Source: Nocardioides sp. GY 10113 (lineage in GTDB: Bacteria > Actinomycetota > Actinomycetes > Propionibacteriales > Nocardioidaceae). Taken from it: a stretch of DNA of 64,000 nt. Position numbers and translations under genes: made by a program. Position 1 is the first letter of the stretch. Each line of letters begins with the position of its first letter. The stretch is taken from assembly GCF_004919105.1 (NCBI RefSeq), contig NZ_STGK01000011.1, positions 62,001 to 126,000 on the forward strand, given 5' to 3'. The notes beneath the pieces were generated by a model. That model worked only from the letters and a program-made list of their open reading frames with translations. It searched no databases and was not told where the DNA came from. This document shows positions 36,471 through 39,244 of the stretch, piece by piece.

Positions 36471-38993
36471 TCAGACGACGATGTTGACCAGCTTGGGCGC
36501 CCGCACGATGACCTTGCGGACCGCGCGGCCGTCGATCGCGCGCTGCACGCCCTCGTCGGCCATCGCGGCGGCCTCGAGGTCGCCCTCGGAGATGTCCGGC
36601 GCGACCTCCAGGCGGGCCTTGACCTTGCCCTGGATCTGGACCACGGCGGTGACCGCGTCCTCCACCAGGAGCGCGGGGTCGACGGTCGGCCAGGCGGCGC
36701 GGGCGACGGTCGGGGCGTGGCCCAGCCGCTCCCACATCTCCTCGGCCGTGTACGGCGCCACCATCGACAGCAGGATGGCCACCGCCTCCGCGGCCTCGCG
36801 CACCGCGGGGTCGGCCGGGCCGCAGCCGGAGTCGATCGCCTTGCGCGTGGCGTTGACCAGCTCCATCACCCGGGCGACGACGACGTTGAACCGGTAGGAC
36901 TCCACCAGCTTCTCCGCGTCGGCGACCGTGCGGGCGGTGACCTTGCGCAGCGCCAGGTCACCGGCGGCGACGTCCGCGCCGGGCTCGGAGGTGACGTCGC
37001 CGGCCAGGCGCCAGGCGCGCTGCAGGAACTTCGCCGAGCCGGCCGGGGAGACGTCGGCCCAGTCGATGTTGTCCTCCGGCGGGCTGGCGAAGACCAGCGT
37101 CAGGCGCACCGCGTCCACGCCGAACTCGGCCAGCTGCTCACCGAGGTTCACGCCGTTGCCCAGCGACTTGCTCATCTTGCGGCCGTTGTTGATGACCTTG
37201 CCCTGGCTCAGGTACGCCGAGAACGGCTCGTCCCAGGTGAGCAGGCCCGCGTCGCGCAGGGCCTTGGTGAAGAACCGGGCGTACAGCAGGTGCAGCACCG
37301 CGTGCTCGTCGCCGCCGATGTACAGGTCGATCGGGCCCCACGCGTCGGCCAGCGCGGAGTCGAAGGCCTGGGTGTCGTCGTTCGGCGACAGGTAGCGGAA
37401 GAAGTACCAGGACGAGTCCACGAACGTGTCCATGGTGTCGGTGTCCCGGGTCGCCGGGCCCCCGCACGTCGGGCAGGTGACGTTCACCCAGTCGTCCGCG
37501 CCGCCCAGCGGCGAGGTGCCCTTGGGCTTCAGGTCGGCACCGCGCAGCTCGGGCAGCTCGACGGGCAGCTGGTCCTCGGGGACCGGGACCTCGCCGTCGA
37601 CCGGGCAGTGGATGATCGGGATCGGCGCACCCCAGTAGCGCTGGCGGGAGAGCAGCCAGTCGCGCAGGCGGAAGTTGACGGTGCCGGTGCCGTGCTGGCC
37701 GGCCTCCAGCAGCTCGATGGCGGCGTGGATCCCGGCGTCCTTGTCCGCCGTACCGTCCAGGGGCCCGGAGTTCACGTAGGTGCCGCTGCCGGCGGTGGCG
37801 ACGCCGGAGACCGCCGGGTCCTCCTCGCCGGTGCCGACGACCATCCGCACCGGCAGGTCCATCGCCCGGGCGAAGTCCAGGTCGCGCTGGTCGTGGGCGG
37901 GCACCGCCATGATCGCGCCGGTGCCGTAGTCGGCCAGCACGTAGTCCGAGGCCCACACCGGGATCTGCTCGCCGTTGACCGGGTTGGTGGCGTGCACGCC
38001 CAGGAAGACGCCGGTCTTCGGCCGGTCGGTGGCCAGCCGGTCGATGTCGGAGGCCTTGCGGACCTCCTCGCGATAGGCCTCCAGCGCGTCCCGCTGCTCG
38101 GCGGTGACCAGGCGCTCGGCCAGCTTCGCGTCGGCGGCGACCACCATGAAGGTGGCGCCCCACAGCGTGTCGGGGCGCGTGGTGAAGACCGTGATCGGGT
38201 CGTGGCCCTCGACGTCGAAGGTGACGTGGGCGCCCTCGGAGCGGCCGATCCAGTTGCGCTGGGCGTTGACGACCTTGCCGATCCAGGTGTCCTGCAGGTC
38301 GTCCAGGCAGTCGTAGAGCTCCTGGGCGTAGGCGGTGGTGCGGAAGTACCACTGGGTCAGCTCGCGCTTGGTCACCTCCGCGCCGCAGCGCTCGCAGGTC
38401 CCGTCGGCCAGCACCTGCTCGTTGGCCAGCACCGTCTGGTCCTTCGGGCACCAGTTGACCGGGCTGTTCTTCCGGTACGCCAGGCCCTGCTCGCGCAGCT
38501 TCAGGAACAGCCACTGGGTCCACCGGTAGTACTCCGGGTCCGAGGTGTGCAGCCGGCGCGACCAGTCGAAGCTGACGCCGTACCGCTTCATCGAGGCGAA
38601 CTGGGTGTCGATGTTGCCGTAGGTGTAGGTCGCCGGGTGCTCGTCGTTGCGGATCGCGGCGTTCTCGGCGGGCAGGCCGAAGGAGTCCCAGCCCATCGGG
38701 TTGAGCACCTCGTAGCCGCGCAGCCGCCAGTACCGCGAGATCACGTCGTGGATCGCGAACACCTCGGCGTGACCCATGTGCAGGTCACCGCTCGGGTAGG
38801 GGAACATCGTCAGCGCGTACTTCTTCAGCCGCTCGCCCGAGAGCACGGCGGCGTCGTCGGCCCGGAAGGGGTCGATCTCGTCCCAGACCGGGAGCCACTT
38901 CTCCTCCACCGCGAGGGCGTCGTACGACGCGGGGCCGGACTCCCCCGGCGCCGTGGTGTCGCTGGGGATCTGCTGGTCGGTCTGCTCGCGCAT
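36471..38993 (-). CDS. leuS: leucyl-tRNA synthetase
   Basis: An 840-residue class Ia synthetase with [11 protein letters not shown] (HIGH motif), the CP1 editing domain ([14 protein letters not shown] and [17 protein letters not shown]), zinc-like Cys motifs ([13 protein letters not shown]), and [10 protein letters not shown] (KMSKS motif). It charges tRNA-Leu. The ATG at 38993 is preferred because it follows GAGAGA and lies clear of the attenuator; the alternative ATG at 39032 is 2 nt after the terminator T tract with no Shine-Dalgarno. The upstream leader suggests control by leucine supply. Confidence 0.95.
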
Positions 38994-39034
38994 CTGTTCT
39001 CTCTCGTGCTCCGCTGGTGGTGCGCCGGACATGC

Positions 39035-39096
39035 AAAAGCCCCTCGCGCTGCAAGGGGCGGCCGCGTCGTTCGTGAAGGTCGGGGAACGACGCGGC
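39035..39096 (-). promoter_or_regulatory. candidate leucine attenuator of leuS
   Basis: Two adjacent structures on the minus strand: a 12-bp perfect hairpin GCCGCGTCGTTC / GAACGACGCGGC (39085-39096 with 39061-39072, 12-nt loop) whose first base is the last base of the leader peptide stop, then a terminator-like 9-bp stem (39039-39047 with 39051-39059, one G-U pair) followed by TTTT. The arrangement of Leu-rich leader, hairpin and terminator is that of amino acid attenuators. How the two structures exclude each other is not evident from the sequence. Confidence 0.7.
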
Positions 39097-39125
39097 TAGA
39101 TAAGGAGAAGCGTCCGGATGGTCAC
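39096..39125 (-). CDS. leuS leader peptide (MTIRTLLLI), probably leaderless
   Basis: A nine-codon frame GTG ACC ATC CGG ACG CTT CTC CTT ATC TAG with three Leu codons in a row. CTT is expected to be rare in such GC-rich DNA, as suits a stalling sequence. A TACCCT -10 box (39132-39137) ends 6 nt before the GTG, so the transcript would begin at or near the start codon, as in many actinobacterial leaderless mRNAs. The stop codon touches the following hairpin. Confidence 0.7.
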   Translation of the reverse strand: MTIRTLLLI

Positions 39126-39131
39126 CTCTCT

Positions 39132-39137
39132 AGGGTA
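39132..39137 (-). promoter_or_regulatory. -10 box of the leuS leader
   Basis: TACCCT, a TANNNT match, 6 nt upstream of the leader GTG. No good -35 hexamer is seen at 17-18 nt, common in actinobacterial promoters. Confidence 0.5.
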
Positions 39138-39155
39138 CCGCCTCCGACCCCGAGC

Positions 39156-39228
39156 GCGTGCCTCCCAAGGCGGCGCCGTCGCGAGCGGCGTTTCCGGCGC
39201 GTAGCAGGCGCGGACCTGGGAGGCACGC
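39156..39228. repeat. 12-bp inverted repeat between divergent leuS and SDR promoters
   Basis: GCGTGCCTCCCA (39156-39167) and its exact complement TGGGAGGCACGC (39217-39228), 49 bp apart. The right arm is directly upstream of the SDR -10 (TAACCT, 39231-39236); the left arm is 18 bp from the leuS leader -10. It might be a shared operator. Confidence 0.55.
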
Positions 39229-39244
39229 CCTAACCTCGTCACCC

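Follow-up and report, generated by a model that had tools for sequence, protein, structure and literature searches.

The leuS upstream region

The window, by which we mean the whole 64,000-nt stretch of Nocardioides sp. GY 10113 DNA that was analyzed, carries leuS on its minus strand, and the upstream neighbor of leuS is a divergent SDR-type gene on the plus strand. Upstream of leuS on the minus strand the order is TACCCT, AGAGAG, a short leader ORF, a hairpin (H1), 1 base, a second hairpin (H2), TTTT, GC and ATG (Table 1), the 6 bases AGAGAG forming the spacer between the hexamer and the leader GTG at 39125. The leader codons are GTG ACC ATC CGG ACG CTT CTC CTT ATC TAG (39125-39096, with TAG at 39098-39096), and the 5' arm of H1 begins at the G of TAG. 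A first-pass annotation of this DNA had described a frame with three consecutive Leu codons, a TACCCT 6 nt before it, a 12-bp hairpin starting at the last base of the stop codon, and a 9-bp stem followed by a TTTT ending 2 nt before an ATG; the frame matches base for base, and the other three features were confirmed, with the ATG at 39032.

Table 1. Positions of the leader elements and of leuS in the window
Feature	Position	Strand	Basis
-10-like hexamer TACCCT of the putative leader promoter	39132..39137	-	sequence
Leader ORF GTG...TAG, peptide MTIRTLLLI, predicted leaderless	39096..39125	-	sequence and relatives
Candidate control codons CTT CTC CTT (Leu1-Leu3)	39102..39110	-	sequence and conservation
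Hairpin H1, 12 bp, base GCCGC/GCGGC	39061..39096	-	fold and covariation
Hairpin H2, 9 bp, stem of predicted intrinsic terminator	39039..39059	-	fold and covariation
Terminator T run TTTT	39035..39038	-	sequence
leuS, start as suggested by relatives	36471..38993	-	ORF and comparison with relatives

Folded alone, the element has a free energy of -42.2 kcal/mol (z = -5.2; none of 200 shuffles was equally stable), and RNA folding returns H1, H2 and a weak 3-bp hairpin. Judged by sequence and fold, the window appears to present control codons for the cognate amino acid followed, before leuS, by H2 and TTTT in the manner of an intrinsic terminator. Searches with the Rfam families, T-box included, gave no match at the gathering score in the window or in 16 loci; a T-box or other Rfam family was rejected, since only sub-threshold matches were found, among them sX13 over 39035-39137 (17.8 bits against a gathering score of 50, E = 0.27).

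The longest leuS ORF begins at the ATG at 39032, two bases past TTTT. Relatives carry a similar CATGTCCGG-type sequence at the equivalent site and do not begin leuS there; their leuS starts further downstream, behind a GAGAGA-type box, at a place equivalent here to the ATG at 38993 (MREQTDQQ...). With relatives beginning leuS downstream, after such a box, translation of leuS probably does not begin at the ATG at 39032, and comparison favors the ATG at 38993. An annotation with the start set at 39032 would make leuS 13 codons too long (38993-39032). Between the leader promoter and the divergent SDR-type gene lies a long imperfect inverted repeat (39152-39231; GCGTGCCTCCCA...TTGGGAGGCACGC), which drew a sub-threshold match to the mir-1295 microRNA model.

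Conservation and distribution of the leader

Two sets of leuS loci were assembled. A search with the leuS N-terminus matched 58 of 59 Nocardioides genomes, the source genome included, and the DNA upstream of each match was read; a second set consisted of 80 named leuS loci from wider taxa, which overlaps the genus genomes in species, so that later counts were made on unique sequences. At 109 of these 138 protein-anchored loci (58 genus and 80 named), a short leader containing a Leu run lies behind a TANNNT box. This promoter-plus-LL motif was missing at 29, four of which (L059, L077, L099 and L105) nevertheless match the covariance model described below. Of the 80 named leuS upstream regions, 50 contain a short LLL-encoding ORF preceded by a -10-like box, versus none of 2173 background 350-nt windows from the same loci.

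A covariance model was built from 37 distinct leaders drawn from the genus and named sets, the window leader among them. It recognizes 52 of the 58 loci in the genus set and 60 of the 80 named ones from wider taxa, both counts including training rows. Across the class, the model has matches at E <= 0.01 in 227 of the 394 genomes sampled and in 93 of the 137 genera, some at other genes; among the 89 of the best-listed class-wide matches that were examined, 81 lie at leuS, six at a cimA-like gene (citramalate/isopropylmalate synthase family), one at ilvB and one beside none of these genes. When genomes were sampled across the phylum, 23 of 296 matched at E <= 0.001 (14 from the class, nine from outside it), and eleven places from the nine outside genomes were assigned by tblastn: three upstream of leuS, two upstream of cimA-like genes (at 29-30% identity, an assignment at family level only), five upstream of ilvB, and one on a short contig without a hit. 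Outside the class the element is sporadic. In its own 4.5-Mb genome the window site scores E = 5.6e-14, the window leader being a training row, and just two further places fall below E = 1e-3, one upstream of a cimA-like gene and one upstream of ilvB; the next values are 4.6 and 7.1. E-values of the covariance model are rough throughout.

Parsing gave 171 unique leaders, after removal of 14 duplicates, of L126, whose short ORF lacks the two-hairpin layout, and of L108, which could not be parsed; in L109 the first parser found no terminator. The 88 class-wide matches with an identified gene yielded 78 leaders, all at leuS, and the ten that yielded none include three leuS loci (L154, L163 and L193). 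Counts over these leaders are not independent, since the leaders are interrelated. Model-found leaders are also biased to the spacing of the model; protein-anchored leaders are not, and the protein-anchored subset (98 leaders) was chosen without regard to hairpins and gives the same picture.

The stems covary. Among the 37 distinct leaders, 95.9% of cells pair, and 10 of 16 modeled pairs change on both sides (6 of 9 in H1 and 4 of 7 in H2). Such both-side changes occupy 60 cells, against 17.1 in shuffles, none of 500 of which reached 60, and they fall to 1-9 when partners are slid by 1-3 columns. Across the relatives' leuS upstream regions, the Leu-run leader is conserved and both stems are conserved and covary, in line with the first-pass proposal. 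The layout upstream of leuS, as judged from these comparisons, is not a product of chance and recurs across the class.

The leader promoter and start codon

In the 171 parsed leaders the TANNNT box ends 6 (131 leaders) or 7 (40 leaders) bases before the leader start codon; parsing required a box 4-8 or 4-9 bases from the start, so only the spacing, and not the presence of the box, is informative. The narrow spacing is what transcription starting at the leader start codon would produce, and on promoter spacing the window leader is predicted to be leaderless. The homologous leuS leader of S. lividans, LeuL2, is described as leaderless by RNA-seq in the accessible text of its report (PMC8079986). 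Together, this homologue and the conservation described above lend strong support to the first-pass proposal, a leucine attenuator whose leader peptide is translated from a leaderless RNA.

Six genus loci do not match the model, and in five of them (L002, L005, L009, L012 and L014) a TANNNT stands six bases before the leuS start; the sixth, L057, lacks it. In those five the promoter has apparently been kept while the attenuator is absent, which would be either a clean loss or the ancestral state. Because the TANNNT lies six bases before a leuS GTG, leuS itself looks leaderless there.

Control codons and hairpin geometry

CTT occupies the third Leu position in 155 of 171 leaders (protein-anchored, 91 of 98; model-found, 64 of 73), set against a background of 97 CTT among 5547 Leu codons in the leuS bodies of the loci. 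CTT accounts for none of the 193 Leu codons in five window ORFs; the window leader has two. The second Leu codon is CTC or CTT in 139 of 171 leaders. CTC and CTT are presumably read by one tRNA-Leu isoacceptor.

Spacing around the hairpins is similarly constrained. H1 starts at position 13-15, counted from the first base of Leu1, in 165 of 171 leaders (95 of 98 protein-anchored), GCCGC occupies positions 15-19 in 158, and the H1 base GCCGC/GCGGC is nearly invariant. H1 and H2 are separated by -2 to +2 nt in 167 of 171 leaders (96 of 98 protein-anchored). The length of H1 varies from 19 to 68 nt; the 19-nt case is L051, where the parser may have caught an inner stem, and the next shortest is 20. 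At least four T occur in the 7 bases past H2 in 168 leaders and three T in the other three, the parser having demanded at least three T in 8 bases.

The stop codon moves, whereas the spacing from Leu3 to H1 is fixed. The stop lies at position 13 in 57 leaders, at 22 in 99 and elsewhere in 15. Leaders of the first type, to which the window belongs, read CTT NNN TAG followed by CCGC; those of the second read CTT NNN CAG CCG CGC TGA or similar, with the 5' arm of H1 within the ORF. When the ribosome edge is set, as a fixed offset, at the first base of the stop codon +15 nt, H2 starts at least 4 nt beyond it in all 171 leaders. A ribosome with Leu3 in the A site is separated from a point 7 nt past H2 by 74.9 nt (sd 9.4) of linear RNA, or by 38.6 nt (sd 2.6, range 33-52) with H1 folded out; the constancy of this collapsed distance stems partly from the size of H2 and the fixed spacers. 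When the ribosome is instead at the stop codon and H1 is open, the same point is 62.2 nt away (sd 9.2, minimum 48). L051 hardly fits this geometry, its stop-state distance exceeding the collapsed one by just 4 nt.

A candidate attenuator sensing charged tRNA-Leu

Our best explanation is that the region upstream of leuS is a ribosome-mediated transcription attenuator that senses charged tRNA-Leu, to which, on the strength of sequence comparison, we assign a probability of about 0.85. We infer that leuS is regulated by attenuation and that its expression would be on when leucine is short. Transcription would start at the GTG, and a 70S ribosome would begin on the bare 5' end and meet the Leu codons after five codons. 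With ample Leu-tRNA the ribosome would reach the stop codon, where its edge would open H1 and end short of H2; H2 would then form and transcription would end before leuS. With scarce Leu-tRNA the ribosome would stall at CTT CTC CTT, H1 would fold against its edge, H2 would be prevented and leuS would be made. The choice between stalling at the Leu codons and running on to the stop follows the accepted logic of attenuation. Sensing would be weighted to the isoacceptor reading CTT/CTC, and a prediction is that in these bacteria the charging state of a single tRNA-Leu isoacceptor governs the essential gene leuS.

By taking 19-68 nt out of the RNA path, H1 would leave a stalled ribosome abutting H2 and near RNA polymerase, with no room for the terminator hairpin. 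We propose tentatively that H1 acts in this way as a length absorber and that the stalled ribosome blocks H2 sterically, because the junctions of H1 are fixed while its length is free. Collided expressomes are reported to be sterically incompatible with termination hairpins in a review, which also questions whether such complexes are stable and generally relevant (PMC7858274). Tight coupling is stated to prevent terminator hairpins in the available text of PMC5021804, where a stall well upstream of a terminator is expected to favor termination via uncoupling; a stalled ribosome would therefore protect only if it is near enough to the terminator.

A broader possibility, which we consider somewhat unlikely, is that these leuS leaders and the related ilvB and cimA-like leaders form an attenuator family without alternative pairing, in which H1 is a spacer and the gene is turned on by contact between a ribosome held up at rare control codons and RNA polymerase located at the terminator. 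If true, ribosome proximity rather than an antiterminator would be the ON switch in leaderless attenuators common in the class. The element would also offer a compact natural system (about 90 nt, leaderless, with one control-codon run) in which to ask whether a ribosome adjacent to RNA polymerase suffices to keep a terminator hairpin from forming.

Alternative explanations

H1 could instead serve chiefly as a pause hairpin, delaying RNA polymerase while a ribosome loads on the leaderless RNA, with some further event, such as NusG- or NusA-bridged coupling or an RNA triplex, producing the ON state. Pausing for synchronization is established for trp, and here the pairing of H1 is strongly conserved and H1 directly precedes H2. 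According to the accessible text of PMC4833913, RNA triplexes had to be invoked in one model of S. venezuelae trpE. A pause alone, however, would have no means of blocking H2 in starvation and does not itself require the fixed spacing from Leu3 to H1, and we regard this alternative as unlikely.

In classical trp-type attenuation, a stall at the Leu codons would let an antiterminator with the 5' arm of H2 form first and exclude the terminator, and the Streptomyces leuS leaders are described in these terms, with antiterminator and terminator hairpins, in the part of PMC1262725 available. H1 can reach 1-2 nt into H2 in 27 of 171 leaders. To weigh this alternative, pairing of the terminator 5' arm before the 3' arm is made was computed with the ribosome at each codon (its edge fixed at the first base of the P site +15), in 170 leuS leaders (L178, holding an N, was left out) and in the E. 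coli trp, leu and thr leaders from RefSeq as controls. The scope of the computation was nested RNA folding and loop-arm duplexes, with triplexes and protein factors outside it. Full-length RNA was uninformative: H2 forms in every ribosome state (mean P 0.96-0.98), as does the terminator in the E. coli controls, which makes the test on the truncated transcript the informative one.

The E. coli controls behave as expected of a classical switch, with values at the control codons of 0.83 for trp, 0.75 for leu and 1.0 for thr (0.65 at the last Thr) and at the stop codon of 0.03, 0.01 and 0.01, respectively. The 170 leuS leaders instead run in the wrong direction, with means that rise from 0.10 at Leu1 through 0.15 at Leu2 and 0.28 at Leu3 to 0.31 at the stop codon; the window leader gives 0.22, 0.39 and 0.32 at Leu1-3 and 0.28 at the stop. 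In 20 of 170 leaders, one or more Leu stalls do leave the H2 5' arm with an upstream pairing of at least 0.5, which favors the classical mechanism, but the full classical pattern (stall >= 0.5, stop <= 0.2) was found in only one of the 170, L133, and stall and stop differ by at least 0.4 in the classical direction in three leaders and in the opposite direction in five. Pairing of the H1 loop with either arm of H2 was not enriched among 102 leaders (mean z +0.26 and +0.27), and an H1 loop-H2 pseudoknot was rejected on this ground; in the window, five bases of the H1 loop can pair with the H2 3' arm (-7.4 kcal/mol).

The classical antiterminator is thus unsupported by a folding test that recovers all three E. 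coli leaders, and we consider it improbable here. The caution in the first-pass annotation that mutually exclusive pairing is not obvious was well placed, the pattern appearing in a single leader of 170 with a test that detects every control. H1 and H2 abut and, in these folding calculations, do not seem to be textbook competitors. Standard accounts of ribosome-controlled attenuation set two RNA pairings against each other; the leuS leaders keep the other parts and, as modeled, appear to show no such contest.

Translational control of the kind exerted by the leuA LEU element, in which the Leu run would pair near the leuS ribosome-binding site, is very improbable. Pairing of the Leu run downstream of the T run has a mean z of -0.65, with 21 of 126 leaders below -2, versus 7 of 126 for a reversed and 6 of 126 for a shuffled run. 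With the whole leader as query, however, 15 of 136 fall below -2 versus 10 of 136 reversed (mean z -0.25 versus -0.26), and against swapped partners the figures are 9 of 136 and -0.24; the pairing is moreover absent in the window (z +0.99). A long-range helix between the Leu run and the region after the T run was set aside: its initial mean z of -0.95 (23 of 102 leaders below -2) shrank to -0.65 in the less redundant set, by mean z it is no better than the control with the whole-leader query, and the window lacks it. In some relatives (e.g., L068, L062 and L035) the Leu run is highly complementary to a stretch past the T run, and this complementarity is weakly enriched overall.

A constitutive terminator, or one that serves a short RNA or a neighboring gene, with leuS read from another promoter and the Leu run incidental, is hardly credible, given that the divergent upstream neighbor leaves no evident minus-strand gene to end here, that Leu codons, promoter spacing and both stems are conserved jointly, and that five of the six unmatched genus loci keep the promoter box ahead of leuS with the attenuator absent.

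Comparison with known leaders

Attenuators upstream of leuS have been predicted in S. coelicolor and S. avermitilis and called classical, as far as the accessible text goes (Seliverstov et al. 2005, PMC1262725), and they resemble the window element: both are actinobacterial and place a Leu leader ORF, a hairpin and a terminator ahead of leuS. LeuL2 of S. lividans is likewise, in the available part of its description, a leaderless LLL leader followed by a hairpin and a U stretch at leuS (PMC8079986). Its peptide, MRAVRLLLSEPR, recurs in six model matches (L179, L183, L188, L189, L190 and L205), and no training row had it. The best reading of these sequences is that the window element is homologous to the Streptomyces leuS attenuators and to LeuL2; homology with LeuL2 as an RNA element is supported in that a model without LeuL2-peptide rows finds such loci upstream of leuS. 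Measured from the Leu run, the window leader reaches its stop codon 9 bases sooner than LeuL2 (TAG at 13 rather than TGA at 22), and the window H1 therefore lies outside the ORF, with MTIRTLLLI as the peptide.

Leaders of ilvB genes are also alike. The ilvB-II motif of Corynebacterium (PMC10272879), the three-hairpin attenuator of C. glutamicum ilvBNC (PMC11857589) and the M. tuberculosis ilvB1 leader (PMC13236596) are, in what is accessible of these sources, actinobacterial and combine a short ORF of branched-chain codons with a first hairpin and a terminator. They differ in the gene that they precede and, according to the same texts, in an antiterminator and terminator described or predicted as overlapping or mutually exclusive; in ilvB-II, moreover, the ORF covers most of the first hairpin (PMC10272879), unlike in the window. 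For the related M. tuberculosis ilvB1 leader, the available text reports that inducibility is lost when the control codons are changed to Ala (PMC13236596). A cautionary case for such leaders is S. coelicolor ilvBNC, where alteration of candidate codons in the upstream region left ilvB unaffected, as reported in the accessible part of PMC1262725.

The two further matches in the source genome are of similar build. One (L140, G000:C30:177890-177983) has the leader MLMTTRTALIIT, ending CTG ATC ATT ACC TAG, upstream of the cimA-like gene, and the other (L141, G000:C30:136750-136844) has the leader MRRLLVRTGRVD, with CTT CTC GTA behind a -10-like box, upstream of ilvB; by eye, each has two hairpins and a T run. 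Outside the class, five ilvB upstream regions (L240, L241, L245, L246 and L247) show the same layout, with branched-chain codons, ACC TAG or ACT TAG, a hairpin and a terminator, and in L245 it occurs in an AT-rich stretch.

In the openly accessible text searched, no description was found of the element beyond Streptomyces or with non-competing hairpins. The E. coli trp, leu and thr attenuators share with it control codons, a terminator and the logic of a stalled versus a terminating ribosome; they differ in having a competing antiterminator in the same folding test, where the window leader shows none. The E. coli leaders also have a 5' UTR, which the window leader appears to lack. The kind of element is already known from the Streptomyces leuS attenuators, which Seliverstov et al. 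(2005) described in two species as classical; what is new here is that no competing antiterminator is seen in a positively controlled test and that the element is far more widely spread.
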